Assembly: GCA_937902925.1 (NCBI GenBank)
Contig: CALFNN010000077.1
Coordinates: 1-64,000 of the forward strand
Length of the DNA stretch: 64,000 bases
Direction: 5' to 3'
Origin: an uncultured Opitutaceae bacterium
GTDB taxonomy: Bacteria > Verrucomicrobiota > Verrucomicrobiia > Opitutales > Opitutaceae
Made by a program: the position numbers and the translations under genes. A model generated the notes under the pieces. That model was not told the DNA's origin and did not search any database. It worked only from the letters and a program-made list of their open reading frames with translations. This document shows positions 4,514 to 43,057 of the stretch, piece by piece; position 1 is the stretch's first letter; each line of letters starts with the position of its first letter.

Positions 4514-7500
4514 CTAGGCGGAAGAGGATGGAGAGGGCGCGGCGTGCGGGAGCGGCACGCGACCGCCGGAGCCGGCGGTCGATGCGGATCGCGCGGCGAG
4601 CCGGTGAGTGAAGCGCTCCATGTAGAGGTAGAACACGGGCGTGATGTAGAGCGTGAGGAGCTGCGAGACGCAGAGACCGCCGACGACTGCGAGGCCGAGC
4701 GAGCGGCGCGACTCGGCGCCGGCGCCCCAGCCGAGCGCGATGGGCATCGTGCCGGCGAGCGCGGCGAGCGTCGTCATCATGATCGGCCGGAACCGCACCA
4801 TGCAGGCCTCGTAGATCGCGACCTCGGCGGACTGGCCGCGCTGGCGTTTCGCCTCGAGGGCGAAATCGATCATCATGATCGCGTTTTTTTTCACGATGCC
4901 GATCAGCATGATCAGGCCGACATAGCCGTAGATGTTCAGCTCCTGGCGAAACAGCAGCAGCGTCACCAGCGCGCCGAAGCTCGCGGAGGGCAGTCCGGAG
5001 AGAATCGTGAGCGGGTGAATGAAATCCTCGTAGAGAATCCCGAGCACGAGATAGATCACGAGCACCGCCACGAGCAGCAGCACGCCGAGACCGCGTAGCG
5101 AACTGGTGAACGCCGCCGCGGTGCCCTGGAAGGTCGCGCTGACGGTGGCGGGGAGTTCGGTGCGGGCGAGTTTGTCGATCGCGTCGGTGGCGGCGCTGAG
5201 CGACGCGCCGGGCGCGAGGTCGAACGACAGCGTGACGGAGGGCAGTTGGCCGAGATGCGTGACGGTGAGCGGCCCGACGGTCGAGCGGACGCGCGTGACC
5301 GCATCGAGCGGGATGAGTTTGCCCGCGTTGTTGTGCAGGTAGAGCAGCGAGAGCGACTGCGCGTCGCGCTGGTATTCGTCGGCGAGCTTGAGGATGACGA
5401 AATACTGGTTGCTCGGCGTGTAGATCGTGGAGACCTGGCGGGAGCCGAAGGCGCTGTAGAGCACGTCCTCGACCTGCTGCGCGGTGATCCCGAGGCTGGA
5501 GGCGCGGTCGCGATCAATGTCGATGAACAACTGCGGGCTGGTGATGAGCAGGTCGGATGTCACGTCGACGACGCTCGGCAGCGCGCGGACCTTTTCCTGG
5601 AACTCGGGCGTGACGCGGAAAAGCTCGTCGAGGTCGGTGCCGTAGAGGGTGAATTGATAGACCGACGACGACTGGCGGCCGCCGATGCGAATACTGGGCG
5701 GCACCTGCGGAAACGCGCGGACGCCGGGCACCTTGGCCAGCGCGGTGCGCAGCATCTGGGCGACTTGCGAGGCGGGCGGCCGCAGCCGGCGATCGATGAG
5801 CCGGAGGTTGAAACGGCCCTGGTTGAACGGGCCGCCGCCGCCGCTGCTCAGCGGACCGATCGACGAAGTGAAGGCGGCGACGTAGGGATTCTTGCCGATG
5901 ATCGCGGCGGCGATGCGCTGGTAATTCCGCATCGCGTCGAACGACGCGTCCTGCGCCACCTCGATCGTGCAGCTCATCGTGCCCGTGTCGTCGGTGGGAA
6001 TGAAGCCCTTGGGCACCGTCACGAGCAGGCCGACCGTGAGCGCGATCATCAGTCCCGCGACGATCATGACGGTCAGCCGGTAGCGGAGCGAGAGTTGCAG
6101 GGTCCGCTCGTAGAGGGCGAGCGTGTCCTGGAAAATCCGCTCGGTCACCGCGTAAAAGCGGCCGTGTCCCGCGCCGTGGCCGGTCGGCTTCAGAAACCGG
6201 CTGCACAGCATCGGGGTGAGCGTGAGCGAAACGAAGCCGGAGACGAGGATCGCGGCGCTGATCGTGACGGCGAACTCATGCAGCAACCGGCCCAGCACGC
6301 CGTCCATGAACAGGACCGGGATGAACACCGCCACGAGCGAGATCGTCATCGAGATGATCGTGAACCCGATCTCGCGGGAGCCTTTGAGCGCCGCTTCGCG
6401 CACCGGCTCGCCCAGCTCAATGTGCCGGATGATGTTTTCGAGCATCACGATGGCGTCGTCCACCACGAAGCCGACGGAGAGCGTCAGCGCCAGCAACGAG
6501 AGATTGTCGATGGTGAAGCCGAAGAAGTGCATCACCGCGAACGTGCCGACGATGGCGATCGGCATCGCGATGCTTGGGATCACCGTCGCGGAGAGCGAAC
6601 GCAGGAACAGGAAGATCACCAGCACGACGAGGATGATCGCGAGGATGAGCGTGAACTTCACGTCGGCCACGGATTCGCGGATCGTCGTCGAGCGGTCGGT
6701 GACGATGTTGAGGTTGATGGCCGCCGGCAGTTGCGCTCGGAAGGTCGGAAGCAGGGCCTTGACCGCGTCGACGACCTCGATCGTGTTCGTGCCGGGCTGG
6801 CGCTTGACCTGGAGATTGATCGCGCGGGTGTTGTTGAACCAGCCGGCGGACTTGTCGCTCTGCACGCTGTCGATGACCGAGGCGACGTCGGTGAGGCGGA
6901 CGGGCGCGCCGTTCCGATAGGTGACGATGACGCGGCGGAAGGCGTCGGCGCTCTTCAACTGGCCGGAAGCCTGGAGCGTGACGGACTTGGACTGGCCGTC
7001 GAGCGTGCCGGACGGGAGATTGACGTTGCTGTTGTTGAGCGAGGTGCGGACCTCGTCGAGGCCGATGCCGCGGGCGGCGAGCGCGCGGGGGTCGAGGAGG
7101 ACGCGCACGGCGTATTTTTGCGAGCCGAGCACCTGGACCTGCGCGACGCCGTTGACGGTCGAAATGCGCTGCGCGAGCAGCGTCTCGGCATATTCGTCGA
7201 CTTCGGAAAGCGGGAGCGTGGCGGAGTTGAGCGAGAGCTGGAGAACGGGATCGTCGGCCGGGTTCGATTTGCGAAACGACGGCGGGCTGGGCATGTCCTG
7301 CGGCAATCGGCGCTGGATGGCGGAGATGGCGGCCTGCACGTCTTGCGCGGCGCCGTCGACGGAACGGTCGAGGCTGAACTGGAGCGTGATCTGCGTCGTG
7401 CCGAGCGAACTCGTCGATGTCATCGAATCGATGCCGGGGATCGTGGAGAATTCCTGCTCGAGCGGCGTCGCCACGGCGGAGGCCATCGTCTCGGGGCTGG

Positions 7501-7660
7501 CGCCCGGGAGGTTGGCGGTGACGTTGATCGTGGGAAAATCGACGTTCGGCAGGTCGTTGACCGGCAGGGAACGGTAGGCCATCACGCCGAAAATCGTGAT
7601 GCCCGCCGTGACGAGCGTCGTCATGACCGGCCGGCGGATGAAGAATTCCGGGATGCTCAT
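4514..7660 (-). CDS. RND efflux pump inner-membrane transporter (HAE1/AcrB-MdtBC type)
   Basis: A 1048-residue proton-driven pump, the normal length for AcrB/MdtB/MdtC-like transporters. It begins MSIPEFFIRRPVMTTL, the typical start of the family, with the first membrane helix, then a large periplasmic loop (VNDLPNVDFPTINV and onward). The family's proton-relay residues are present: the paired Asp in VGFVVDDAIVMLEN of helix 4 and the Lys in GIVKKNAIMMIDFA of helix 10. The second half repeats the first. I start it at the ATG at 7660; the frame stays open further upstream but only as a shadow of the adaptor gene. The start overlaps the adaptor stop by four bases (ATGA), so translation is coupled. 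No outer-membrane channel gene is visible here. Substrate unknown, but the linked amidases suggest a possible amide-related cargo. Confidence 0.95.
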   Translation of the reverse strand: MSIPEFFIRRPVMTTLVTAGITIFGVMAYRSLPVNDLPNVDFPTINVTANLPGASPETMASAVATPLEQEFSTIPGIDSMTSTSSLGTTQITLQFSLDRSVDGAAQDVQAAISAIQRRLPQDMPSPPSFRKSNPADDPVLQLSLNSATLPLSEVDEYAETLLAQRISTVNGVAQVQVLGSQKYAVRVLLDPRALAARGIGLDEVRTSLNNSNVNLPSGTLDGQSKSVTLQASGQLKSADAFRRVIVTYRNGAPVRLTDVASVIDSVQSDKSAGWFNNTRAINLQVKRQPGTNTIEVVDAVKALLPTFRAQLPAAINLNIVTDRSTTIRESVADVKFTLILAIILVVLVIFLFLRSLSATVIPSIAMPIAIVGTFAVMHFFGFTIDNLSLLALTLSVGFVVDDAIVMLENIIRHIELGEPVREAALKGSREIGFTIISMTISLVAVFIPVLFMDGVLGRLLHEFAVTISAAILVSGFVSLTLTPMLCSRFLKPTGHGAGHGRFYAVTERIFQDTLALYERTLQLSLRYRLTVMIVAGLMIALTVGLLVTVPKGFIPTDDTGTMSCTIEVAQDASFDAMRNYQRIAAAIIGKNPYVAAFTSSIGPLSSGGGGPFNQGRFNLRLIDRRLRPPASQVAQMLRTALAKVPGVRAFPQVPPSIRIGGRQSSSVYQFTLYGTDLDELFRVTPEFQEKVRALPSVVDVTSDLLITSPQLFIDIDRDRASSLGITAQQVEDVLYSAFGSRQVSTIYTPSNQYFVILKLADEYQRDAQSLSLLYLHNNAGKLIPLDAVTRVRSTVGPLTVTHLGQLPSVTLSFDLAPGASLSAATDAIDKLARTELPATVSATFQGTAAAFTSSLRGLGVLLLVAVLVIYLVLGILYEDFIHPLTILSGLPSASFGALVTLLLFRQELNIYGYVGLIMLIGIVKKNAIMMIDFALEAKRQRGQSAEVAIYEACMVRFRPIMMTTLAALAGTMPIALGWGAGAESRRSLGLAVVGGLCVSQLLTLYITPVFYLYMERFTHRLAARSASTAGSGGRVPLPHAAPSPSSSA

Positions 7661-8859
7661 GTGGCCTTGCGCTGGCGCTTGGGGCGGGGGGGCGCGTCGG
7701 CGGCCGCGGCGTCCCGCGCCTCCACCAACTCCCCGGGGACGAGGCGAAGCTGGCCGTCGACGACGACGATCTCGCCCTCGGCGAGACCGCCGGCGACAAC
7801 CGAGTCGGTGTCGCTGACGCGCTCGATCGTCACGTGGCGAAACTCGGTCTTCCGGTCGGCGTTCACCACGAAGACGTGCTGGCCATCCTGGTCGTCCTGC
7901 ACGGCGGTGGTGGCGACGACGAGCACGTCGGGCGACGCCAGCGTCACATGCACCGGCACGAACTGGCCGGGCCAGAGGTGGTGCGCGGCGTTGGGAAACG
8001 TGGCCTTCACCTTCAGGGTGCCGGTGGTGGCGTCGACCATGTTGTCGAGGAAAGTCAGCTCGCCGCGCTCGGGCGCGCTGTCGGCGCCGGGAGGGGCGGC
8101 GACGACGGAGATGGCGCCCGCGGTGCGATAGCGGCTGAGCGTCGAGATTTGCTGCTGCGGCACGCCGAACGTCACGTAAATCGGGCTGAGCTGGTTGATC
8201 GTGACGAGCGCGATATTGGCGTCGCTCGCGCGGACCAGGTCTCCCTCGTGAGCGCCCAGCGTCCCGGTGCGACCGGCGAACGGCGCACGAATGGAGCAAT
8301 ATTCGAGCTGAAGCTGCGCACTCGCGACGGCGCTCTCGCTGACCAACAGCTGCGCGGCGAGGGCGCGCTCGGTGGCCTGAATCGTATGATACTGCTCCTG
8401 CGACACCATGTTGGTCCGGTTCAACTCGGCGTAACGCGCGACCTGCAGCCGGGCGTTTTCGAGTTGCACGGCGATTTTTTCCCGGTCGGCCTCCGCGACC
8501 GCGATGGCGTTCTGGAACGGCCGCGGGTCGATCTCGAACAGCAGGTCGCCGGGCCGGACGTCCTGCCCCTCTTGAAAAGCAACGCGCAGCAGCGTGCCGG
8601 TGACCTGCGAGCGGACGGCGGCGCTGCGAACGGGCTCGAAGACCCCGACGGCGTCGAGCGTGAGCGGCACGGCCCGGCGTTGCACCTTGCCGGTCCGCAC
8701 GATCGCGGCGGTCGAGTCGCTCGTGGCGGTGGATGGCGTCTTTCCGGCGCATGCGGCGAGCGCGAGCGTTACCCCGACCGCGATGACAAGATGCACCGGG
8801 CGGAGGCGCAACCGACAGGACGAGCGGAATGGGCGGCGGACCAGTGTTAGGTTTCCCAC
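7657..8859 (-). CDS. RND efflux periplasmic adaptor (membrane-fusion lipoprotein, AcrA/MdtA type)
   Basis: A 400-residue adaptor that would bridge the RND pump and an outer-membrane channel. After a basic N-terminus and hydrophobic core there is a lipobox (LAAC near residue 37), so the mature protein is probably a lipoprotein. The lipoyl/barrel-sandwich halves are recognisable (VTGTLLRVAFQEGQDVRPGDLLFEIDPRPF, read as two pieces, and YCSIRAPFAGRTG), separated by a helical hairpin. A beta-barrel region with WPGQFVPVHV and a membrane-proximal domain follow. The start used is a GTG at 8859; a second GTG at 8796, just before the hydrophobic core, is also possible. First obvious gene of the pump-amidase operon, preceded by the sigma-54-like element at 9020-9056 and a leader of about 160 bases. 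Confidence 0.92.
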   Translation of the reverse strand: MGNLTLVRRPFRSSCRLRLRPVHLVIAVGVTLALAACAGKTPSTATSDSTAAIVRTGKVQRRAVPLTLDAVGVFEPVRSAAVRSQVTGTLLRVAFQEGQDVRPGDLLFEIDPRPFQNAIAVAEADREKIAVQLENARLQVARYAELNRTNMVSQEQYHTIQATERALAAQLLVSESAVASAQLQLEYCSIRAPFAGRTGTLGAHEGDLVRASDANIALVTINQLSPIYVTFGVPQQQISTLSRYRTAGAISVVAAPPGADSAPERGELTFLDNMVDATTGTLKVKATFPNAAHHLWPGQFVPVHVTLASPDVLVVATTAVQDDQDGQHVFVVNADRKTEFRHVTIERVSDTDSVVAGGLAEGEIVVVDGQLRLVPGELVEARDAAAADAPPRPKRQRKAT

Positions 8860-9002
8860 GGGAACAGTGTCCCGCCGAAGCTGCCGCGCCGTGAAAAACC
8901 GGGGTCGTCAACGGCAACCGCGGCGACGCGATTGCCCGGACGAAATTTGGTTTGCCAAGAGGCGTGGGCCGACGGTGTAGTCGACCGCTCGGGCGAGTTC
9001 AT
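8847..9002 (-). CDS. Possible 51-residue leader peptide upstream of the RND operon
   Basis: A short open frame starting MNSPERSTTP and ending LFPWET, whose stop overlaps the GTG start of the adaptor gene. Its ATG sits in the context AACC-ATG-AAC, the same context found after the conserved GCCAATCG block in front of one acetamidase-family gene and of the TonB receptor at 15.8 kb. It lies directly downstream of the sigma-54-like element at 9020-9056, so it would be the first open frame on that transcript. There is no recognisable domain, signal peptide or membrane segment. It could be a translated leader coupled to the pump, the remnant of a former downstream gene, or chance in GC-rich DNA. Evidence is positional only. 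Confidence 0.25.
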   Translation of the reverse strand: MNSPERSTTPSAHASWQTKFRPGNRVAAVAVDDPGFSRRGSFGGTLFPWET

Positions 9003-9019: not shown

Positions 9020-9056
9020 GACGATTGGCGTTGTCCGACCAGCAAACCAGATGCCA
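9020..9056 (-). promoter_or_regulatory. Sigma-54-like promoter element plus conserved start block (copy D)
   Basis: On the minus strand: TGGCAT (9056-9051), five bases, TTGCT, then eleven bases and GCCAATCGTC (9029-9020). The invariant GG-N10-GC of sigma-54 promoters is present and both boxes match consensus well. The distance from the T of TGGCAT to the G of GCCAATCG is 27 nt, the same as in copies A, B and C. It points toward the RND adaptor gene and the amidases behind it. Confidence 0.65.
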
Positions 9057-9280
9057 TGGCTCGCCTGAGCGCTTTTTATGAAATCGTTTTGTGCCGGCCC
9101 GCGGCGGGATGAAGCCGGGTCCGCGCGACGATGACGCGGCGGTGAGCGCAACGAAGTTTGGCGCGAACGAGTTCCCGCAGCACAGGCGACCCTGAGGTGT
9201 GGTCGCGAAGTTTTCGGGGGTGAGCGGATCGCGCCGGCGCCGGGCACGCCGCCGTGCGACGGTGGAGCCGCGCGAGCGCG

Positions 9281-9318
9281 TGGCATGTTTCCAGCTCATC
9301 CGCTGCCGACGCCAATCG
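9281..9318 (+). promoter_or_regulatory. Sigma-54-like promoter element, divergent copy (E)
   Basis: TGGCAT (9281-9286), five bases, CAGCT; GG-N10-GC is kept but the -12 box is weak. GCCAATCG follows at 9311-9318, at 30 nt instead of the 27 seen in the other copies, and then changes to ACGTC. It lies 86 bases before the ATG of the first acetamidase-family gene. It is the least certain of the five. Confidence 0.4.
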
Positions 9319-9366
9319 ACGTCCGTGCGCGATTTTCGCGGCGGATCACTTCAACCGACATCATCA

Positions 9367-10593
9367 ATGAATCACCCTCGTGCCGTGGGTGCCGCGGCTT
9401 GCTCCGCGACACCACCAGAACTCGCGGTCCGCCGGACCGCCGCGCCTCGTGCGCTTTTCGCCCTCGGGCTCGCGCTGCTCGCGCAGCAAGCCACCGCCAT
9501 GGAAATCACGCCGGACTACGTCGTGCATTTCACGCCGGAGAACGCCATCCTCGGGCACTTTTCCTCGACGAAGAAGCCGGTCGTCACCGTGAAGTCCGGT
9601 GCGATCGTCCGGATCGAGGGCGGCGGCGGGGCGCGCTGGGGCGCGGGCGATCCCGACGCGTGGCTGAAGGAAAACAACGTCCCGACCACGGTGGAAACGT
9701 GCCCGGCGTTGCAGGAGACGATCAAGGTGCTGAAGGAAACGCCGAACCGGTTGCCGCCACCCGAGCCGCCGCCGGGTGCGCCGCCGCCCGCGGCGGGAGC
9801 GGCCGGTGCCGCGCGCGCCGGCGGCCACATGCTCGTCGGGCCGGTCTATATCGAGGACGCCGAGCCGGGCGATTCGCTCGAGATCCGCATTCTCGACGTC
9901 ACGCCGCGGATTCCTTACGGCACGGTCGGCGCGAATCCCGGCGGCGGCGCGCTGCCCGACCTCGTGCCGCGGCCGTTCACCAAGGTCGTCGTGCTCGATC
10001 TCAAGCGCAACGCGGGCATCTTCGACGACAACGTGGAGGTGCCACTCGCGCCCTTCAACGGCGTGATGGCGACGTGCCCGCCCGACTCCGAGGGGCCGGA
10101 CCGCCGCTCGGGTCCGCCGGGTGCGTTCGGCGGCAATCTCGACTGCAAGGAACTCGTCGCGGGCGCGACGCTTTACCTGCCGGTGTTCCAGAAGGGCGCG
10201 TTGTTCTACACCGGCGATTGCCACGCGGCGCAGGGCGATGGCGAGATCACGGTCAACGCGATCGAGACGGCGAACGTCGCGACGCTGCAATTCATCCTGC
10301 ACAAGGGCCTGACGCTGCAGGAGCCGCGCGCGGAAAGTCCGACCCACTACATCGCGTTCGGGCTGGATCCGGATTTGGACAAGGCGATGCGGATGGCGAT
10401 GATCGAGGCGGTGGATTTCCTGAAGGAAAAGCAGGGTTACGATTTTCACCACGCCTACACGCTCGCGAGCATCGCGGTGGACTTTCACGTGACGCAGGTC
10501 GTCGACAAGACCCTCGGCATCCACGCCATGATTCCGAAGAAACTCTTCATCAAGGATCCGAATCCCTATTGGTATCGGCCGCACGGAACGTGA
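9367..10593 (+). CDS. Exported acetamidase/formamidase (FmdA/AmdA) family protein 1
   Basis: A 408-residue member of the acetamidase/formamidase family, whose characterised members hydrolyse small amides such as formamide and acetamide to the acid plus ammonia. Family hallmarks visible: VKSGAIVRIEGGGG near the N-terminus, GPVYIEDAEPGDSLEIRI, PLAPFNGVMATCPP, FGGNLDCKEL, LYLPVFQKGALFYTGD-CHAAQGDGEI, and the C-terminal VDFHVTQVVD. Unlike typical cytoplasmic formamidases it has an N-terminal hydrophobic segment (about residues 28-44) ending AMEI, suggesting export. A Pro/Gly/Ala-rich stretch at about residues 135-155 interrupts the fold. The ATG at 9367 is preferred over the longer open frame (9199), whose added residues are basic and overlap the promoter element. 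First of three paralogs on this strand. Confidence 0.88.
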   Translation: MNHPRAVGAAACSATPPELAVRRTAAPRALFALGLALLAQQATAMEITPDYVVHFTPENAILGHFSSTKKPVVTVKSGAIVRIEGGGGARWGAGDPDAWLKENNVPTTVETCPALQETIKVLKETPNRLPPPEPPPGAPPPAAGAAGAARAGGHMLVGPVYIEDAEPGDSLEIRILDVTPRIPYGTVGANPGGGALPDLVPRPFTKVVVLDLKRNAGIFDDNVEVPLAPFNGVMATCPPDSEGPDRRSGPPGAFGGNLDCKELVAGATLYLPVFQKGALFYTGDCHAAQGDGEITVNAIETANVATLQFILHKGLTLQEPRAESPTHYIAFGLDPDLDKAMRMAMIEAVDFLKEKQGYDFHHAYTLASIAVDFHVTQVVDKTLGIHAMIPKKLFIKDPNPYWYRPHGT

Positions 10594-10626
10594 CCCGGCG
10601 CTGCGGGAAACCGGCGAGGTGGGGCG

Positions 10627-10655
10627 GGGCGCGACGCGAATGTCGCGCCCTTTTT
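10627..10655 (+). terminator. Rho-independent terminator
   Basis: Nine-base perfect stem (10627-10635 with 10642-10650), loop GCGAAT, then five T. It follows the first acetamidase-family gene, so the second probably needs its own promoter, in agreement with element A. Confidence 0.85.
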
Positions 10656-10682
10656 GTTGTTGCGGCACAATCGCGGTCGCCG

Positions 10683-10719
10683 TGGCACGCCGCTGGCTGT
10701 GGCGGGAGAGCCAATCGTC
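10683..10719 (+). promoter_or_regulatory. Sigma-54-like promoter element plus conserved start block (copy A)
   Basis: TGGCAC (10683-10688), five bases, TGGCT, then GCCAATCGTC at 10710-10719, exactly 27 nt from the first T. GG-N10-GC is intact; the -12 box has TGGC instead of TTGC. The element lies just after a terminator and 8 bases before the ATG of the second acetamidase-family gene, so a transcript starting near 10709 would have a leader of about 19 bases. Confidence 0.6.
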
Positions 10720-10727
10720 TACTCCCT

Positions 10728-11987
10728 ATGACTTCCTCACGAATGCTGGATTCGTGTCCGACGCGCTCGGACACCCGGTCGACGCTCCGCGTTGCCCAGT
10801 CGTTGCGCCTTGGTTCGCCTCGAGCGAACCGGGGCTTCGGTTCGATCATCAACCCGGCGACGACCCGCGGTCTCGCGCTCGCCGTGCTCGGCCTCGCGCT
10901 CGCCACGGGCGCGCGGGCACTGGAGGTGCCTTACGATTACACGGTGCCGTGCACGCCGGAGAACGCGATCTTCGGATATTTTTCGCCGACGAAAAAGCCG
11001 GTGCTCACGGTGAAGTCTGGCGCGGTGGTCCGCATCGAGGGCGGCGGCGGCAACAAGTGGGGCGCCGAGGCCGATCCCGACGTGTGGCTCAAGGAAAACC
11101 ACATCCCGATCACCGTCGAGACGAACGCAGCGCTGAAGGAAATTGTGACGGCGTTGAAGGACTCGCCGAACCGTCCCCCGCCACTGCCTGGCGCGCCGGC
11201 CGGCACCGGTCGCGGCGGCCATTTTCTCATCGGGCCGATCTACATCGAGGACGCCGAGCCGGGCGATTCGCTCGAGGTCCGCATCCTCGACGTGACGCCG
11301 CGGCTGCCCTACGGCGCGAACAGCGCCACGCCGGCCGGCGGCGGCCTGCCCGGCGTGATGCCGCGGCCGTTCAGCAAGGTCTATATGCTCGATCACAAGC
11401 GGAACGCCGCGATCTACGACGACAAAATCGAGATCCCGATGGCGCCCTTCAACGGCGTGAACGCGACGTGTCCGCCGGATTCGGAGGGACCATATCGGCG
11501 CTCGACGGAGCCGGGCGTGTTCGGCGGCAACCTGGACAGCAAGGACCTGACGACGGGCAGCACGCTTTACCTGCCGATTTTCCAGAAGGGCGCGCTCTTC
11601 TACACGGGCGACTGCCACGCGGCGCAGGGTGACGGCGAAATCGCCGGCGACGCGATCGGCACCGCGAACACCTGCATTTACCAGTTCATCCTCCACAAGG
11701 GCGTCACGCTCAAGGGCCCGCGGGCGGAGACGCCGACGGAATATATCATCTACGGCATGGATCACGACCTGGGGATCGCGATGAAGAACGCGATGATGGC
11801 CACGCTCGACTTCCTCAAGGAGAAGGGCGGCTACGATCTCATGCAGGCCTACACGCTGTGCAGCGCGGCGGTCGACTTCCGCGTGACGCAGGTGGTCGAC
11901 AAGACGCTCGGCATCCACGGCGCGATCGCGAAGAAACTCTTCGTGAACGACACGGACACCTACTGGTATCGCACGCCGCGATTTTGA
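10728..11987 (+). CDS. Exported acetamidase/formamidase (FmdA/AmdA) family protein 2
   Basis: A 419-residue paralog of the preceding gene with all the same blocks: VKSGAVVRIEGGGG, GPIYIEDAEPGDSLEVRI, PMAPFNGVNATCPP, LYLPIFQKGALFYTGD-CHAAQGDGEI and VDFRVTQVVDKT. It would hydrolyse a small amide to release ammonia, outside the cytoplasm if the N-terminal hydrophobic segment (about residues 45-65, ending ATGARALEV) is a signal peptide. The n-region before that segment is unusually long (about 44 residues) and contains an inverted repeat in the DNA (10812-10830) also found in the third paralog. The ATG at 10728 follows the conserved GCCAATCGTC block closely; a second ATG at 10743 is possible. The PPP/Gly-rich loop is shorter than in its neighbours. 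Confidence 0.88.
   Translation: MTSSRMLDSCPTRSDTRSTLRVAQSLRLGSPRANRGFGSIINPATTRGLALAVLGLALATGARALEVPYDYTVPCTPENAIFGYFSPTKKPVLTVKSGAVVRIEGGGGNKWGAEADPDVWLKENHIPITVETNAALKEIVTALKDSPNRPPPLPGAPAGTGRGGHFLIGPIYIEDAEPGDSLEVRILDVTPRLPYGANSATPAGGGLPGVMPRPFSKVYMLDHKRNAAIYDDKIEIPMAPFNGVNATCPPDSEGPYRRSTEPGVFGGNLDSKDLTTGSTLYLPIFQKGALFYTGDCHAAQGDGEIAGDAIGTANTCIYQFILHKGVTLKGPRAETPTEYIIYGMDHDLGIAMKNAMMATLDFLKEKGGYDLMQAYTLCSAAVDFRVTQVVDKTLGIHGAIAKKLFVNDTDTYWYRTPRF
10812..10830 (+). repeat. Hairpin in the signal-peptide coding region (copy 1)
   Basis: GGTTCGC, five bases, GCGAACC, followed by GGGGCTTC. The same arms, loop length and following bases occur at 12219-12237 in the next paralog. The two copies lie 102 and 105 bases after their GCCAATCGTC blocks. 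Confidence 0.6.
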
Positions 11988-12031
11988 TTGCGCGGTGGCC
12001 GCGCGGTGCGAAGCGCGGCGGGTCGATGCGA

Positions 12032-12059
12032 GCGCAGCCTGCGGGCTGCGCTTTTTTTT
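12032..12059 (+). terminator. Rho-independent terminator
   Basis: Eight-base stem (12032-12039 with 12044-12051), four-base loop and a run of eight T. It ends the second acetamidase-family gene. Confidence 0.9.
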
Positions 12060-12086
12060 CGCGGGTTCGGTAACTGGAGGTCCGGC

Positions 12087-12123
12087 TGGCACGCCACCGG
12101 CTCCGCCACTTTTGCCAATCGTC
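12087..12123 (+). promoter_or_regulatory. Sigma-54-like promoter element plus conserved start block (copy B)
   Basis: TGGCAC (12087-12092), five bases, CGGCT, then GCCAATCGTC at 12114-12123, again at 27 nt. GG-N10-GC is intact, the -12 box is off consensus. The ATG of the third acetamidase-family gene follows 11 bases later in the context ACAACC-ATG-AAT. Confidence 0.6.
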
Positions 12124-12134
12124 TCCCTACAACC

Positions 12135-13484
12135 ATGAATTCCTCTCCATTGCTGGATCGGCGGTCCGCTCGCGCGGCCGCCCAGTCGACGCCATGCGCC
12201 GGCTTTGTTCATCGCCCGGGTTCGCCAGTTGCGAACCGGGGCTTCAGTCGCCTCATCGTCCCGACCACCTTGCTCGCCCTCGGGTTTGCCGCCGGAGCGA
12301 GCGCGATGGAAGTGCCCTACGACGTGCTCGTGCCATGCACTCCGGAAAACCTGATCGTCGGCCACTACTCGTCGACGAAGAAACCGGTGGCCGTCGTCAA
12401 ATCCGGCACGGTCGTCCGGATCGAGGGCGGCGGCGGCGCGCGCGGCGGCGGAGGCGACGGCGAGGCCGCAGTCGAGGCGCAGAACAAATGGCTCAAGGAA
12501 AACGATATTTCGCTGACCGTGGCGGACAGCCCGGCGCTGCAGGAGACAATGAAGGCGCTTGCGGAGACCACGAACCGGTTGCCGCCACCTCCCGGCGCGC
12601 CGCCGGGCACGGGCGTGGGCGGGCATTTCATCATCGGCCCGGTTTACATCGAGGACGCGGAGCCGGGCGATTCGCTGGAGGTTCGAATCCTCGACGTGTC
12701 GCCGCGGATTCCATGGGGATCGACCGGTGGTTCGCCGGGTCGCGGCGGACTCGCGCTGGGTTCGAGTCCGCCGGAGTCCATGGCCAGCGCCTCGGCGGCG
12801 CTGCCGTTGCCCGGTGCGGGAGGACGGCGGGGCGGGGCGGGAGCGGCGGGCGGCATGGCCTTGCCGCGGCCGTTTTCAAAGGTCACGCTGCTCGATCTCA
12901 AGCGCAACGCGGGCCACTTCAACAAGAACATCGAAGTGCCGCTCGCGCCCTTCATGGGCGTGATGGCGACGTGCCCGCCGGATTCCGAGGGGCCGGACCG
13001 CCGGTCGACCGCGCCGGGGACGTTCGGCGGCAACCTGGATTGCAAGGAACTCGTCGCGGGCACGACCCTGTATCTGCCGGTTTATCAGAAGGGCGGGCTG
13101 TTTTACACGGGCGACTCGCATGCGGCGCAGGGCGATGGCGAGATCAGCGGCACGGCGATCGAGACGGCCGACACGTGCACGGTCCAGTTCATCCTGCACA
13201 AGGGCAAGACGCTCACGATGCCGCGCGCCGAGACGCCGACCGCCTACATCGCGTTCGGGCTCGATCCCGACCTGAACAAGGCGATGAAGCAGGCGATCGA
13301 CGAAACCCTGTCATTCCTGCAGGAAAAGGAAGGCCTCGATCTGCTCCAAGCCTATGCGCTTTCGAGCATCGCAGTGGATTTTCACGTGACGCAGGTCGTC
13401 GACCGCGTGTTTGGCATCCACGCAATGATCCCGAAGCGAATCTTCGTGAACGATCCGGACTCGTATTGGTATCGCGCCAAATAG
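12135..13484 (+). CDS. Exported acetamidase/formamidase (FmdA/AmdA) family protein 3
   Basis: A 449-residue third paralog, longest of the set because of two low-complexity insertions: a Gly-rich one after VVRIEGGGG and a Ser/Pro/Gly/Ala-rich one of about 45 residues (around residues 195-240) before LPRPFSKVTLLDLKRNAG. The family blocks are otherwise kept (GPVYIEDAEPGDSLEVRI, PLAPFMGVMATCPP, FGGNLDCKELVAGTT, YTGDSHAAQGDGEI, VDFHVTQVVD). The Cys of the usual GD-CHAAQ block is Ser here (GDSHAAQ), which may matter for activity or substrate. A hydrophobic segment at about residues 42-58 (LLALGFAAGASAM) suggests export after a long n-region. The ATG at 12135 lies 11 bases after the GCCAATCGTC block. 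Confidence 0.88.
   Translation: MNSSPLLDRRSARAAAQSTPCAGFVHRPGSPVANRGFSRLIVPTTLLALGFAAGASAMEVPYDVLVPCTPENLIVGHYSSTKKPVAVVKSGTVVRIEGGGGARGGGGDGEAAVEAQNKWLKENDISLTVADSPALQETMKALAETTNRLPPPPGAPPGTGVGGHFIIGPVYIEDAEPGDSLEVRILDVSPRIPWGSTGGSPGRGGLALGSSPPESMASASAALPLPGAGGRRGGAGAAGGMALPRPFSKVTLLDLKRNAGHFNKNIEVPLAPFMGVMATCPPDSEGPDRRSTAPGTFGGNLDCKELVAGTTLYLPVYQKGGLFYTGDSHAAQGDGEISGTAIETADTCTVQFILHKGKTLTMPRAETPTAYIAFGLDPDLNKAMKQAIDETLSFLQEKEGLDLLQAYALSSIAVDFHVTQVVDRVFGIHAMIPKRIFVNDPDSYWYRAK
12219..12237 (+). repeat. Hairpin in the signal-peptide coding region (copy 2)
   Basis: GGTTCGC, five bases (CAGTT), GCGAACC, then GGGGCTTC. The arms match the copy at 10812-10830 while the loop differs, so pairing is kept. 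Confidence 0.6.
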
Positions 13485-13517
13485 TCCGCGGCGAAGGCAC
13501 GACCCGGGACTCTGCTC

Positions 13518-13547
13518 GAGCGCGGCTGGAAAGGTCGCGCTCTTTTT
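13518..13547 (+). terminator. Rho-independent terminator
   Basis: Seven-base stem GAGCGCG/CGCGCTC (13518-13524 with 13536-13542) followed by five T, downstream of the third acetamidase-family gene. Confidence 0.75.
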
Positions 13548-13703
13548 CCGCTCCCGGCACACCCGACACCGGTCGGCAGGGCGGGTTCACCGATCGGCAG
13601 CCCGGTCGACTACAGTCCCGGTGCCCCCGGGGGAAGGGCCCTGCTGGAATGAAGCTTGCTGCCCCGTGCTGCATCAACCGGACGTGGCCGCCGGTTCGGC
13701 CCG

Positions 13704-15677
13704 ATGTTTTCCCTCCAACCACCCATGCGGAAGTGCGCCGGGTCCTCGGCGCGCACACGGAGACCGTGTGCGCTGATTTTCTTCGCGACGTTCATCGCCT
13801 ACTGGCCTGCGCTGGCTGGCGGATTCCTCTGGGACGACCCCGCCCACGTGACGCGTCCCGATCTCCGGTCGCTGGCCGGACTCGCGCGGATCTGGTTCGA
13901 GCCGGGTGCCACCCAGCAATACTACCCGCTCCTGCACTCGGCGTTCTGGCTCGAACACGCGTTGTGGGGCGATGCGACTGTCGGTTATCATCTCGTGAAC
14001 GTCCTGTTGCACGCGACGGCGGCGTGCCTGTTTGGCGTGGCGTTGCGCCGGCTCGAGGTGCCGGGGGCGTGGCTGGCGGCGGCGATTTTCGCGCTGCACC
14101 CGGTGGGCGTCGAATCGGTGGCGTGGATTTCCGAGCAGAAGAATACGCTGTCGCTCGTGCTTTATCTGGGAGCGGCGCTCGTCTACCTGCGCTTTGACGA
14201 ACGCCGCCGCCGGACCGACTACGCGGGCGCCACGGCGTTGTTCGTCGCCGCCCTGCTGACGAAGACGGTCGCGGCGACGCTGCCGGGTGCGCTCCTCGTG
14301 ATCTTCTGGTGGAAGCGCGGCCGCCTCGATGCGCGACGCGATGGGTTGCCGCTGCTGCCGTGGTTCGGCCTTGGGCTCGTTGCCGGCTTGTTCACGGCCA
14401 CGGTTGAACACGCGTTGATCGGCGCCGAAGGTGCGGACTTTGCGCTGTCGTTCCTGCAACGCGGCCTCCTCGCGGGTCGCGCGATCTGGTTTTATCTCGG
14501 CAAGCTCCTCTGGCCGGCCGACCTCGTTTTCATCTATCCGCGCTGGGACATCGATGCCGCGGCGGCGTGGCAATATCTGTTTCCACTCGCGGCCCTGGCC
14601 GCGACGGGCGGGTTGGCGTGGTGGGCCCCCCGTTCGCGTGCACCGCTCGCGGCGCTGCTTTTTTTCGGCGGCTCGCTGTTTCCCGCACTCGGTTTCGTCA
14701 ACGTCTTCCCTTTCCTCTATTCGTTCGTCGCGGATCATTTTCAGTATCTCGCGTCCCTCGGGGCGATCGCGGCAGCGTCGTCGGCGCTGACGTTCCTGCT
14801 CGCGCGCCTGCCCCGCTGGGAGAGCCGTGTCGCCGGCGCCACCCTGCTGATCTCGCTCGCCGCGCTCACGTGGCGGCAGTGCGGCATGTATCGCGACCTC
14901 TTTGTCCTCTACGATACGACGATCGCCCACAACCCGGCCTGCTGGATGGCGCACAACAATCTTGCCATCGCGCTCGCCGATGCCGGCCGGTGCGGCGAAG
15001 CAGTGGCGCACTTTGAGCAGGCGTTGAGACTCCGGCCGGCGTATCCCGAGGCGGAGGCCAATCTCGGCGAGGCATTGAACCGTCTCGGTCGTTCGGGTGA
15101 GGCCATCCCGCACCTGGAGCGGGCGCTTCAGCTGCAGCCAACCTACGCCGATGCGCATCACAATCTTGGCATCGCGCTGCTGGCCACGGGACGCGCGGCG
15201 GAGGGCATGGCGCAATTCGACGTGGCGCTCCGGCTCCGGCCGGCCTATCCCGAGGCGCAATTCAGTCTCGGTCACGCGCTCGCGGTCGCCGGCCGCTACG
15301 CCGACGCCATTCCCCATTTCGCCGAGGCGGCGCGCCTGAAACCCGACTACGCCGCCGCCCAGCTCGACTGGGGCACCGCGCTCATGGTCGTGGATCGCTT
15401 TCCCGAGGCGGTGGTTCATTTCGAGGAGGCCATTCGCCTGAATCCCGCGCTCCCCGAGGCGCACGACAATTACGGTCGCGGCCTCGCCCGGGCCGGCCGG
15501 ATGGAAGAGGCGATCGCGCAGTTCCGGGCGGCGCTCCGGTTGAATCCCGATTTCGCCGAGGCGCAGCTCCATCTGGCGCTCGCGCTCCGCCAGGCGGGCG
15601 GCCACGCCGAGGAAGCGGCGAAACATTTCGCCGAGGCACAGCGCCTCGATCCGACGCTGGCCGCGGGTTCGCGGTAG
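13704..15677 (+). CDS. Membrane protein with C-terminal TPR repeats (TMTC/GT-C-like)
   Basis: A protein of about 657 residues. The first 370 or so residues hold many hydrophobic segments; an early loop has WDDPAHV, and FALHPVGVESVAWISEQKN follows, a block typical of bacterial membrane-TPR proteins related to the TMTC/GT-C glycosyltransferase-like group. From about residue 410 to the end there are six or seven TPR units (repeats of the form A..NLG.AL...GR..EAI.HFE.AL.L.P.). The role is unknown; family logic suggests modification of an exported substrate or a scaffold. The start is uncertain: ATG at 13704 is used, 13725 is close and 13656 would add basic residues. It converges with the TonB receptor gene. 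Confidence 0.8.
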   Translation: MFSLQPPMRKCAGSSARTRRPCALIFFATFIAYWPALAGGFLWDDPAHVTRPDLRSLAGLARIWFEPGATQQYYPLLHSAFWLEHALWGDATVGYHLVNVLLHATAACLFGVALRRLEVPGAWLAAAIFALHPVGVESVAWISEQKNTLSLVLYLGAALVYLRFDERRRRTDYAGATALFVAALLTKTVAATLPGALLVIFWWKRGRLDARRDGLPLLPWFGLGLVAGLFTATVEHALIGAEGADFALSFLQRGLLAGRAIWFYLGKLLWPADLVFIYPRWDIDAAAAWQYLFPLAALAATGGLAWWAPRSRAPLAALLFFGGSLFPALGFVNVFPFLYSFVADHFQYLASLGAIAAASSALTFLLARLPRWESRVAGATLLISLAALTWRQCGMYRDLFVLYDTTIAHNPACWMAHNNLAIALADAGRCGEAVAHFEQALRLRPAYPEAEANLGEALNRLGRSGEAIPHLERALQLQPTYADAHHNLGIALLATGRAAEGMAQFDVALRLRPAYPEAQFSLGHALAVAGRYADAIPHFAEAARLKPDYAAAQLDWGTALMVVDRFPEAVVHFEEAIRLNPALPEAHDNYGRGLARAGRMEEAIAQFRAALRLNPDFAEAQLHLALALRQAGGHAEEAAKHFAEAQRLDPTLAAGSR

Positions 15678-15712
15678 TCACACCTGCCGCTCCCTGGCGC
15701 TCATTCTTTCCA

Positions 15713-15756
15713 GAAAAAACGCGCCGGCGGCACGGGTTGCGTGCATCGCCGGCGCG
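15713..15756 (-). terminator. Rho-independent terminator of the TonB-dependent receptor gene
   Basis: Ten-base perfect stem CGCGCCGGCG/CGCCGGCGCG (15720-15729 with 15747-15756) with an inner hairpin, followed on the minus strand by six T. It lies between the two converging genes. Confidence 0.85.
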
Positions 15757-15813
15757 GCAGTTGAACTTATTCCCGGCGGGTCGTCCCGATCCTCCGGGAG
15801 CCCATTCGGTGGC

Positions 15814-18228
15814 TCAGAATCCGTTCTTGCCGAACTTCCAGGTGAATTTGCAGTCGATGGTGCGACCGACCCCGGGGATGAGGCTGCCACCGTTGTTCGC
15901 GAAATAAAGGGCGTCGGTCAGGTTCTTGCCGGAGACGCGGAAGTCCCATTTTCTCGTGGTGTAGCCGATGGAGGCGGTCACGAGAAACGCCGCCGGCAGG
16001 TGAATCGTCTGCGAGCTGTCGGCGGAGAAGCTGCCCTGGCGATTGAAGCCCACGGAGGCGTCGAAGCCTTTGCCGAGATCGACGTTGGCAAACAGATTCC
16101 AGACCTGCGGCGGCTCGTAGCTCTTGCCGTTGTTGATGGCCGGCACGGTGACGCTGTAGCGGCCGAGACCCTGGGTGATGGGATCGTAGCCGGCGGCTGC
16201 GGCCGAGACGGTGACACCGCCGGCGCTGGGCGGCGTGGTGATTTTCTCGATCCAGTCGATCGAGGCGGAAATGCTGATCCGGCGGCTGGGCACCCAGCGG
16301 GCCTCGATATCGGCGCCCTTGCTCTCGGTGTTCACATACTGGTCGATGGTGGCGTTGTAACTGCCGCGGAACTGGTCGAAGGCGGACGAGCCGACGAACA
16401 ACTTGCCGCCGAAGAAGTCACCCTTGATGCCGGCTTCCTTCAACGTCGACGGCTGGAGAATTTCCTTGGCGGTGACCGTGGACGAGGTCAGCCCGCCGGA
16501 ACTGCCGGGAATGAAACTGCGAGGGCTGCCGTAGGTGAAATAGGGATGGATCCCCTTGAACAGCTCGTAGGACACGCTCGCCGAGGTCAGAGAGTATTTC
16601 TTATCGGAACCCTTGTCGAAACGGGGCGCCGTGATGCTGACGGTGTCGTTCGCCGCCAGCGTGTAGCCCTGGCGGGTGCCGACCCGGGCATAGACCGTGT
16701 CGAGGCGTTCACCGATCGTGAGGTTGAGCTTCCTGAACGCGGTGAGGTCGAGCAGCGTGCCGGCTCCCACCTCGATGTCCTGGCTCTTCACGCCCGAGGC
16801 GACGGGAGCCAGTTCGGGATTGTCGTAGCCGTCGGCGAAGGCGTAGCGCCCGGTCTGGTAGCGGCTGAGATCCCAGTAGTTGAAAATCTGGTCGATGTTC
16901 GTGGTGTTGTTGTAGGTGTCGAGCCAGCGCGCGTTGACCGAGGTCACGTCGGCGACTTTCAACCACTCGGGCAGGTGCGTGGCGTGCCACTCGACGCTCA
17001 CGCGGTCCTCGGCGAGGAAGGCATGGTGCATCCGGAAATAGGCGATGTCGGACGCCTTGTGGTGGGCCTGCTTCTCGATGAACAGCTTGTTGCGGAAGAC
17101 GAGATTCGGATCCGCATCGTTCACCAGGTCCGCAAAGAATATGTAGTCCCGGCCGAAGGCGTTCTTCTCGATCGCGACCGCGCGGGGGCTGAGTTTGACG
17201 ATCGCCGTCGTGGTCGGATCCATCGCCAGGATGCTCGGATTTGTGAGTTTGGGCGGAACGCCCGACGCCGGCACGGTGATGTTGAAGTTCTGCTTGGCGT
17301 TGACGAACTCGGCGAGGCTGACCAACCCGTCGCCGTTGGTATCGAGATTCACCAGCGGCAGGCCGGCCTGGTAATTCCGATTGTCGACGAGGTCCTGCGT
17401 GATCCGGTTCCAGCCCGCGATGCCGGTGCCGTGGAAGTTCTGGTAGTTGATGCCCGTCTCCAAGCGGAGCGACGGGGTGAGATCGACGGTCAGGGTCGAC
17501 TGCAGAATCTGCTGCCGGGTGAAATTGCCGTAGAAATATCCGTCCGAGTCGTCGACCTGGGCGTAGGTGTAGAAACCGGCGCGCTTGCCGAAGATGGACA
17601 GGGGGCCGCCCACTTCGCCGGTATAGGTTTTCTTGCCGTAGGTGCCGAGCGTCGCGGAGATCTTGCCCGTGATCGACTCCATGTAGCGGCCGGTGCTGGC
17701 GCGGGCGGACTTGGGTTTGTAGTCAGTGTAGCCGCCGACCTGGCCGGCGCCGTAGACGGCGGACGGCGGGCCGCGCACGATGTCGACGCCATCGCTGGCG
17801 CCGATGAGCGTGGGCATGTTCGGGCCGTTGTTGATGCGCTTCATCTCGCGGTAGTAGGTGTCGCCCGGGCCGCCGCGGATGTTCAACCCGCCCTGGATTC
17901 CGTAGGAAAACGAGGTGTAGGTGCTCGGCACGAAGCTCGCCATGTCGACGAGTTCGTTGATGTGGAATTTGTCGACCATGTCGCCGCTCACGATGCTGAT
18001 CGACCGCGGCGTTTCCACGATCGGCTTGCCGAGGCCGAAAACCGAGTCGCTGATCTTCGGGATGAGACCCGACGGATCGTTGTCGTTGGCGACGAATTTT
18101 TCCATGACGACGATGTTCTCGTCGGGTTTCTTTTCCTTTTCCTTGGCGTCGTCGGTTTGGGCGTGAACGGCGGCGAGGATGCCGAGAGTGCAGGCGGCAG
18201 CGACGACTAGCGGAATGCGTTGGGACAT
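15814..18228 (-). CDS. TonB-dependent outer-membrane receptor
   Basis: An 804-residue TonB-dependent receptor that would import a substrate through the outer membrane using TonB energy. MSQRIPLVVAAACTLGILAA then HAQT is a signal peptide; a TonB-box-like stretch (ENIVVMEKFVAN) follows. The plug is recognisable by SISIVSGDMVDKF, LNIRGGPGD and DGVDIVRGPPSAVYGAGQVGG. The rest is beta-barrel ending in WKFGKNGF, with a terminal aromatic residue. The ATG at 18228 is chosen because it begins the signal peptide. The barrel differs from the three receptors at 49-60 kb and there is no EF-hand. Upstream lies sigma-54-like copy C, shared with the amide genes, which suggests that its cargo may belong to the same pathway. 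The cargo itself cannot be read from the sequence. Confidence 0.92.
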   Translation of the reverse strand: MSQRIPLVVAAACTLGILAAVHAQTDDAKEKEKKPDENIVVMEKFVANDNDPSGLIPKISDSVFGLGKPIVETPRSISIVSGDMVDKFHINELVDMASFVPSTYTSFSYGIQGGLNIRGGPGDTYYREMKRINNGPNMPTLIGASDGVDIVRGPPSAVYGAGQVGGYTDYKPKSARASTGRYMESITGKISATLGTYGKKTYTGEVGGPLSIFGKRAGFYTYAQVDDSDGYFYGNFTRQQILQSTLTVDLTPSLRLETGINYQNFHGTGIAGWNRITQDLVDNRNYQAGLPLVNLDTNGDGLVSLAEFVNAKQNFNITVPASGVPPKLTNPSILAMDPTTTAIVKLSPRAVAIEKNAFGRDYIFFADLVNDADPNLVFRNKLFIEKQAHHKASDIAYFRMHHAFLAEDRVSVEWHATHLPEWLKVADVTSVNARWLDTYNNTTNIDQIFNYWDLSRYQTGRYAFADGYDNPELAPVASGVKSQDIEVGAGTLLDLTAFRKLNLTIGERLDTVYARVGTRQGYTLAANDTVSITAPRFDKGSDKKYSLTSASVSYELFKGIHPYFTYGSPRSFIPGSSGGLTSSTVTAKEILQPSTLKEAGIKGDFFGGKLFVGSSAFDQFRGSYNATIDQYVNTESKGADIEARWVPSRRISISASIDWIEKITTPPSAGGVTVSAAAAGYDPITQGLGRYSVTVPAINNGKSYEPPQVWNLFANVDLGKGFDASVGFNRQGSFSADSSQTIHLPAAFLVTASIGYTTRKWDFRVSGKNLTDALYFANNGGSLIPGVGRTIDCKFTWKFGKNGF

Positions 18229-18245
18229 GGCTTTGGTTTGTTCAT
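18207..18245 (-). CDS. Possible 12-codon upstream open frame overlapping the TonB-receptor start
   Basis: ATG at 18245 in the context GCAACC-ATG-AAC encodes MNKPKPCPNAFR and a stop, in another frame, overlapping the receptor ATG at 18228. It is the first ATG after the conserved GCCAATCGTC block. Whether it is translated is unknown. Confidence 0.2.
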   Translation of the reverse strand: MNKPKPCPNAFR

Positions 18246-18262
18246 GGTTGCGGTTCGAGTCG

Positions 18263-18299
18263 GACGATTGGCACCGCGGTTTTAGCAAGCGCGGTGCCA
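18263..18299 (-). promoter_or_regulatory. Sigma-54-like promoter element plus conserved start block (copy C)
   Basis: On the minus strand: TGGCAC (18299-18294), CGCGC, TTGCT, eleven bases, then GCCAATCGTC (18272-18263). This is the best match of all copies to the sigma-54 consensus. It also forms a long hairpin, since GGCACCGCG pairs with CGCGGTGCC. It reads toward the TonB receptor. Confidence 0.7.
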
Positions 18300-18432
18300 C
18301 CTCCCCGCCGCCCGGAAGCCCATGAATTATTTTCGCGCAACCTCGCGCCCACAGAAACGCCCGGCGTTCACGCGCGGGCGCCGGTCCCGGACGCGACACG
18401 ACGCGGGCCGGCTGGCGGCGCCCCGCGGCCGA

Positions 18433-43041: not shown

Positions 43042-43057
43042 TGGCACCGGTCGTGCT
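43042..43057 (+). promoter_or_regulatory. Sigma-54-like promoter of the first amt-glnK operon
   Basis: TGGCAC (43042-43047), five bases, GTGCT (43053-43057) with GG-N10-GC. Transcription would begin near 43068, some 55 bases before the chosen amt start. Nitrogen-controlled amt-glnK operons are classic sigma-54 targets. Confidence 0.6.

Follow-up and report, generated by a model that had tools for sequence, protein, structure and literature searches.

The 64,000-nucleotide stretch of DNA analyzed here (the window; contig CALFNN010000077.1 of an uncultured Opitutaceae bacterium) contains a gene cluster in which three members of the acetamidase/formamidase family lie between an RND efflux pair and a TonB-dependent receptor gene (Table 1). 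Five short elements, which we name by the position of their first T, precede the RND pair, each of the three formamidase genes and the receptor gene, and each combines the pattern TGGCAY-N7-GCT with a downstream tag, GCCAATCG. An earlier note on this DNA had described them as sigma-54-like promoters, and the elements are indeed present where it placed them: five matches are found, versus a mean of 0.00 in 100 shuffles, none of which yielded a match. The distance from the first T to the tag is 27 nucleotides (nt) in four elements and 30 nt in 9281, as the note had it. The form GCCAATCGTC that it assigned to the elements holds at four sites and fails at 9281, which reads GCCAATCGAC. All five carry GG-N10-GC. 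By itself, GCCAATCG occurs in the window at a frequency near chance (7 seen versus 5.62 expected), and thus the enrichment signal is that of core and tag combined rather than that of GCCAATCG alone.

Table 1. Features of the gene cluster and a comparison site, in window coordinates.
Feature	Positions	Strand	Remarks
ACR_tran RND pump	4514..7723	-	
HlyD/CusB-type membrane fusion protein (RND adaptor)	7657..8859	-	GTG start as listed
Inverted repeat, 3' arm, CTCGCCCGAGCG	8987..8998	-	one mismatch; promoter 9022..9056
Sigma-54-like promoter, TGGCAT-N5-TTGCT, 11 bases, tag GCCAATCG	9022..9056	-	precedes RND efflux pair
Inverted repeat, 5' arm, CGCTCAGGCGAG	9060..9071	-	promoter 9022..9056
Upstream element AAAACGATTTCAT (variant)	9078..9090	-	21 bases before TGGC
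Promoter, TGGCAT-N5-CAGCT, 14 bases, tag GCCAATCG	9281..9318	+	precedes first formamidase gene
Acetamidase/formamidase family gene 1 (PF03069)	9367..10593	+	
Promoter, TGGCAC-N5-TGGCT, 11 bases, tag GCCAATCG	10683..10717	+	follows terminator-like hairpin; precedes second formamidase gene
Acetamidase/formamidase family gene 2 (PF03069)	10728..11987	+	
Promoter, TGGCAC-N5-CGGCT, 11 bases, tag GCCAATCG	12087..12121	+	follows terminator-like hairpin; precedes third formamidase gene
Acetamidase/formamidase family gene 3 (PF03069)	12135..13484	+	
TonB-dependent receptor (plug domain PF07715)	15814..18228	-	
Promoter, TGGCAC-N5-TTGCT (canonical), 11 bases, tag GCCAATCG	18265..18299	-	precedes TonB receptor
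Upstream element GAAAATAATTCAT	18322..18334	-	22 bases before TGGC
Upstream element TTTCTG	18352..18357	-	58 bases before TGGC
Sigma-54-like core TGGCACCGGTCGTGCT	43042..43057	+	without tag, comparison site; before ammonium transporter (43112 onward)

A search of the complete genome (105 contigs, 5,998,283 bases) with a looser pattern gave no matches beyond these five, and the canonical pattern, allowing three mismatches at most, recovered just four of them. All copies therefore reside within one 9.3-kb gene cluster, which contradicts their earlier description as unlinked promoters, and we rejected the accompanying idea of a mobile promoter module because the copies are confined to this cluster instead of being scattered. 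By eye, the cores at 10683 and 12087 lie directly past the terminator-like hairpin and T-run of the preceding gene, with 45-48 bases to the next ATG, which is where a promoter would be expected. Each of the five elements is followed by an ATG, 18 to 56 nt past the first base of its tag; at 9056 and 18299 this ATG starts a short upstream frame instead of the main gene.

We consider it most likely, judging from sequence, that the five elements are sigma-54 promoters. The genome encodes one RpoN (a single PF04552 match, E 1.5e-58) and has 11 matches to the activator domain PF00158, of which 8 are strong. Among 14 genomic matches to TGGCAC-N6-TGCW, three precede flhB (PF01312), a flagellar rod gene (PF00460) and an ammonium transporter gene (PF00909), all of which are typical sigma-54 targets. 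The tag accompanies only one of the 14 cores, that of 18299, and is absent from the flhB, rod and ammonium transporter sites.

The tagged arrangement recurs in relatives. Among 252 genomes of the same family, a loose core followed by GCCAATCG matches in 36, and many of these matches are probably due to chance. The stricter combination of TGGCAY-N6-TGCT, a spacing of 8-14 and GCCAATC yields 22 matches in 14 of the 252 genomes and none in a reversed control. The spacing is 11 in 15 matches, 12 in five and 9 in two, and we take the two with spacing 9, one of which precedes a flhB-like gene, for chance. A sequence profile built from eight sites turned up further, partly degenerate sites, and 14 regions were fetched from its long match list. 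We compiled a table of 29 sites in 22 regions of 15 genomes, the window included, and picked the downstream gene of each from the reading frames. This table includes L072, L073 and L079 despite their degenerate tags, leaves out most of the weaker profile matches, and omits the matches in L038, L039, L111 and L112, which were judged to be chance or (L112) lie before a flhB-like gene. A separate search returned 54 stretches, 13 of them labeled Verrucomicrobia, Opitutae or Opitutaceae; we inspected 8 of the other 41 and assumed the rest to be chance.

The genes downstream of the 29 sites encode TonB receptors (13 sites, two of which share one receptor), acetamidases/formamidases (6), amidases (5), an asparaginase (1), an RND protein (1) and a DUF3299 protein (1), with two sites left unassigned. 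Thus 25 of the 29 precede TonB receptors, amidases, asparaginase or formamidases, and at 12 the downstream product is an amide or asparagine hydrolase, as befits targets in nitrogen acquisition. This tally points to an amide-nitrogen theme. Even the wider spacing of 9281 has a counterpart, in that a site with a gap of 13 precedes a formamidase gene in locus L036.

Because most of these sites were found through GCCAATC, we also fetched promoters by protein. A PII (PF00543) query, itself taken from a tag-bearing locus, found a match in 48 of 49 genomes from another Verrucomicrobia family, and the best 30 loci were retrieved. All 30 of these best loci carry TGGCAY-N6-TGCT within 300 bases of the PII start, with GG-N10-GC exact in every one. 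GCCAAT follows at a gap of 10-15 in 22 of the 30 (at a gap of 12 in 11), whereas shuffles of the 60 bases that follow gave on average 0.053 such tags and never more than 1. The 30 loci are related and hence do not represent 30 independent events. In three loci that were read further, an ammonium-transporter-like frame follows PII by eye. The proposal of a shared tag at about +2 therefore withstands comparison with a set that was not selected for the tag. Its occurrence at 22 of 30 PII promoters of another family points to an older feature of nitrogen sigma-54 promoters, and we best read the start-region tag as predating the Opitutaceae. A class-wide draw of 384 genomes added 3 matches among the 346 genomes outside the family, two of them before PII genes and one before pilin-like genes. 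To judge from these sequences, the tag is a feature of those sigma-54 promoters in Verrucomicrobiota that are related to nitrogen, rather than of sigma-54 promoters generally.

Some sites also share sequences upstream of the core. At 11 of the 29 sites GAAA starts precisely 35 bases ahead of TGGC, and at 9 sites TTTCTG lies 57-58 bases ahead of it, in the combined arrangement TTTCTG-N17-GAAANNAATTMAT-N21/22-TGGC. These fixed distances suggest a protein that acts alongside the polymerase.

Core, spacings, gene content and recurrence can be read from the DNA directly. We favor the interpretation, to which we assign a probability of about 0.72, that the five elements are RpoN-dependent -24/-12 promoters of a small, local amide-nitrogen regulon and that they carry a tag in the start region. 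RNA polymerase containing sigma-54 would bind TGGCAY and TGCT/NGCT and would be activated by a nitrogen-responsive enhancer-binding protein of the NtrC class, joined at some of the promoters by the TTTCTG and GAAANNAATTMAT elements further upstream. The transcripts would begin within GCCAATC or immediately before it, such that the mRNAs start nearly alike. To obtain nitrogen from amides, the regulon would then supply enzymes resembling acetamidases and formamidases, an RND efflux pair, and a TonB-dependent receptor that serves uptake. In this scheme we infer the use of RpoN, the start site, the control by nitrogen and a function for the tag. The tag must work through the DNA of the start region or through the RNA 5' end, and its most likely role would be that of a start-region DNA site bound by a nitrogen regulator or that of the transcript's 5' end.

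Several observations weigh against this interpretation. On its own, the core shows no enrichment in the genome and proves little, its 14 matches being fewer than the 63 of the reversed pattern. None of the 11 PF00158 matches in the genome lies on the contig of the window, and no GAFTGA-like frame was found beside the sites in 25 regions totaling 439,148 bases, which led us to reject an activator gene adjoining the sites. Upstream elements are missing at 9281, 10683 and 12087, and for the RND and DUF3299 genes a connection with amides is not obvious. Nor is the tag universal: the ammonium transporter (amtB) promoter of this very genome lacks it, and when the 252 family genomes were searched for the G063 TonB receptor, 16 loci were recovered, of which 11 have a clear TGGCAY core in the 700 bases upstream and 7 have GCCAAT. 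All seven were already known from the tag searches, so the denominator of 16 is the informative part (the L233 row, a second copy, is not counted). Among these receptor relatives, the core is better kept than the tag. The site in L181, which has the core and GCCAATC at a spacing of 12 and lies before genes that by eye are pilin-like, does not fit a role in nitrogen metabolism. Lastly, an inverted repeat at the sites we call class 1 covaries even though its 5' half would not be transcribed from the predicted start.

This repeat bears on two explanations that involve RNA structure. The earlier note had proposed a hairpin across the promoter, formed by TGGC and GCCA. We rejected this as a common feature since its four pairs are invariant, which means that the stem cannot be judged by covariation, and since 19 of the 29 sites fold within 1.1 standard deviations of their shuffles. 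Nor do all sites share one covarying fold. Five sites do fold at z-scores below -3 (W9056, L037b, L070, L071 and L073, ranging from -3.2 to -5.8). In the folding subset, TGG pairs with a CCA of the leader, and GCCAATC occupies the loop of a long hairpin that spans the promoter. In an alignment of seven class-1 sites, both partners differ in 6 of the 17 pairs, compared with 2.5 +/- 1.1 after shuffling, and none of 500 shuffles reaches this value; the signal is lost when the partners are slid. The structure was derived from the same alignment on which it was tested, which favors it, and two of the seven (L036a and L072) are unremarkable in the folding test.

One explanation dispenses with sigma-54 promoters, in that TGGCAY, TGCT and GCCAATC would be conserved bases of a structured leader RNA made from a promoter further upstream. 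The strongly folding sites, the class-1 covariation and the fixed placement of TTTCTG and GAAANNAATTMAT all speak for such an RNA, but it does not account for the many sites that fold no better than shuffles, for the exact GG-N10-GC of all 30 fetched PII promoters, or for the occurrence of the core before flagellar and ammonium-transporter genes. There is also, by eye, scant room for another promoter between the terminator-like hairpin and the core at 10683 and 12087. Searches of the window and 8 loci (L074-L077 among them) found no Rfam match at the gathering score, and we therefore rejected a known RNA family. A riboswitch-like RNA was seriously considered as a general explanation and set aside because of the near-shuffle folding of most sites. 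Taken together, we regard a leader RNA in place of promoters as improbable.

A second explanation keeps the sigma-54 promoters and adds to them. Because the 5' half of the class-1 repeat lies upstream of the predicted start, its covariation suggests that read-through RNA matters there. The repeat might fold RNA arriving from upstream and keep it untranslated, while RNA started at the tag, lacking the 5' arm, would be free. Fold-back inhibition of read-through transcripts is known from Tn10, where the promoter likewise lies between inverted-repeat arms; no transposon is present here, and the resemblance is restricted to the class-1 subset. The geometry agrees with such a role, since the covarying repeat is centered on the predicted start, such that the 5' arms fall upstream and the 3' arms within the leader, by the ATG of the receptor gene. 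The repeat, however, surrounds only a minority of the promoters, and by eye such arms are missing from the orthologous receptors in L224, L225 and L229 despite a core or near-core there. We thus hold this combination to be possible, though only tentatively so.

The shared tag might instead be functionless, a mere consequence of common descent through duplication of one promoter. Three tandem paralogs and the likeness of the leaders at 9056 and 18299 beyond the tag are what duplication would produce. Against it, the tag is kept before amidase, asparaginase, TonB receptor and PII genes while adjacent bases differ, the 60 bases upstream of the PII cores average only 40% positional agreement, and the distance between core and tag floats from 10 to 15 in PII promoters. 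A functionless tag of this origin strikes us as very improbable. If the tag has a function, a speculative and rather doubtful version is that GCCAAU is a 5'-terminal mRNA signal of nitrogen sigma-54 transcripts in Verrucomicrobiota, read post-transcriptionally by a dedicated RNA-binding protein, a small RNA or 5'-end nuclease control. Were this so, one sequence would couple promoter choice with mRNA fate, and in one group of the PII transcripts the signal would pair with UUGGC into a stem-loop at the 5' end. TTGGC is found downstream in 13 of the 22 tagged PII promoters, where it can form a short stem-loop with the tag; the bases at the inner position are U-A or U-G in 12 of the 13, and the outer pair forms in 7 (A-T, C-G or G-C) and not in the other 6. 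TTGGC is found within 35 bases at none of the 27 tabulated sites that have GCCAA. The tag is shared while its possible pairing partners differ.

The promoter class that we favor has relatives among known systems. Sigma-54 promoters of the -24/-12 type serve nitrogen genes such as glnK and amtB, and the elements described here resemble them in the TGGCAY-N5-NTGCT core, in the nitrogen-related genes that follow and in the presence of rpoN in the genome. They differ in the conserved GCCAAT tag at about +2, in the TTTCTG and GAAANNAATTMAT elements at a fixed upstream distance at some sites, and in their targets, which are TonB receptors, amidases and formamidases. Sigma-54-dependent amtB promoters are named in a passage of PMC3404531. 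The PEP-CTERM promoter class of Proteobacteria (Haft et al., 2006; PMC1569441) joins a sigma-54 motif to a second conserved motif, a proposed activator site, and likewise defines one dedicated regulon. Relative to that account, the extra motif here lies downstream, at the predicted start, and the genes serve amide use and uptake; no PEP-CTERM domain was found in the downstream proteins scanned with Pfam. A literature search, with most subscription papers outside its coverage, found no published description of such a promoter. It is unusual for a motif to be kept at the predicted start of transcription of nitrogen sigma-54 promoters and yet to be missing from the flagellar sigma-54 promoters of that genome. 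With this motif, a nitrogen regulon of Verrucomicrobiota can be defined by sequence, and the use of amide nitrogen would connect its TonB receptors, amidases and formamidases with an RND pair.

Several minor observations concern the leaders and neighboring genes. On the minus strand, the first ATG after the tag opens a frame of 12 codons at 18207-18245, overlapping the start of the TonB receptor gene, and one of 51 codons at 8847-9002, overlapping the start region of the RND adaptor gene. We rejected a conserved leader peptide for these frames, as ACG stands in place of the ATG at two sites of L036, and AGG does so in both L072 and L079. About 350-390 bases separate the tag from the main gene start in L074, L075, L076 and L077, whose genes may thus have long leaders. 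In L037 (G080, 11925-16322), the formamidases are replaced by three tandem paralogous genes behind the TonB receptor gene, the first of which lacks a Pfam match. At G000:C81:1551 (L177, L189), the sigma-54-like site TGGCACACCCGCTGCA is located some 0.36 kb ahead of a frame that is itself a response-regulator-like activator gene of the sigma-54 kind. The PII promoters (L192-L221) share conserved A-rich columns approximately 41, 52 and 70 bases before TGGC, with A in 29 of 30 at -41, and these columns, which fall about 33-73 bases before TGGC, are spaced by roughly one or two helical turns.

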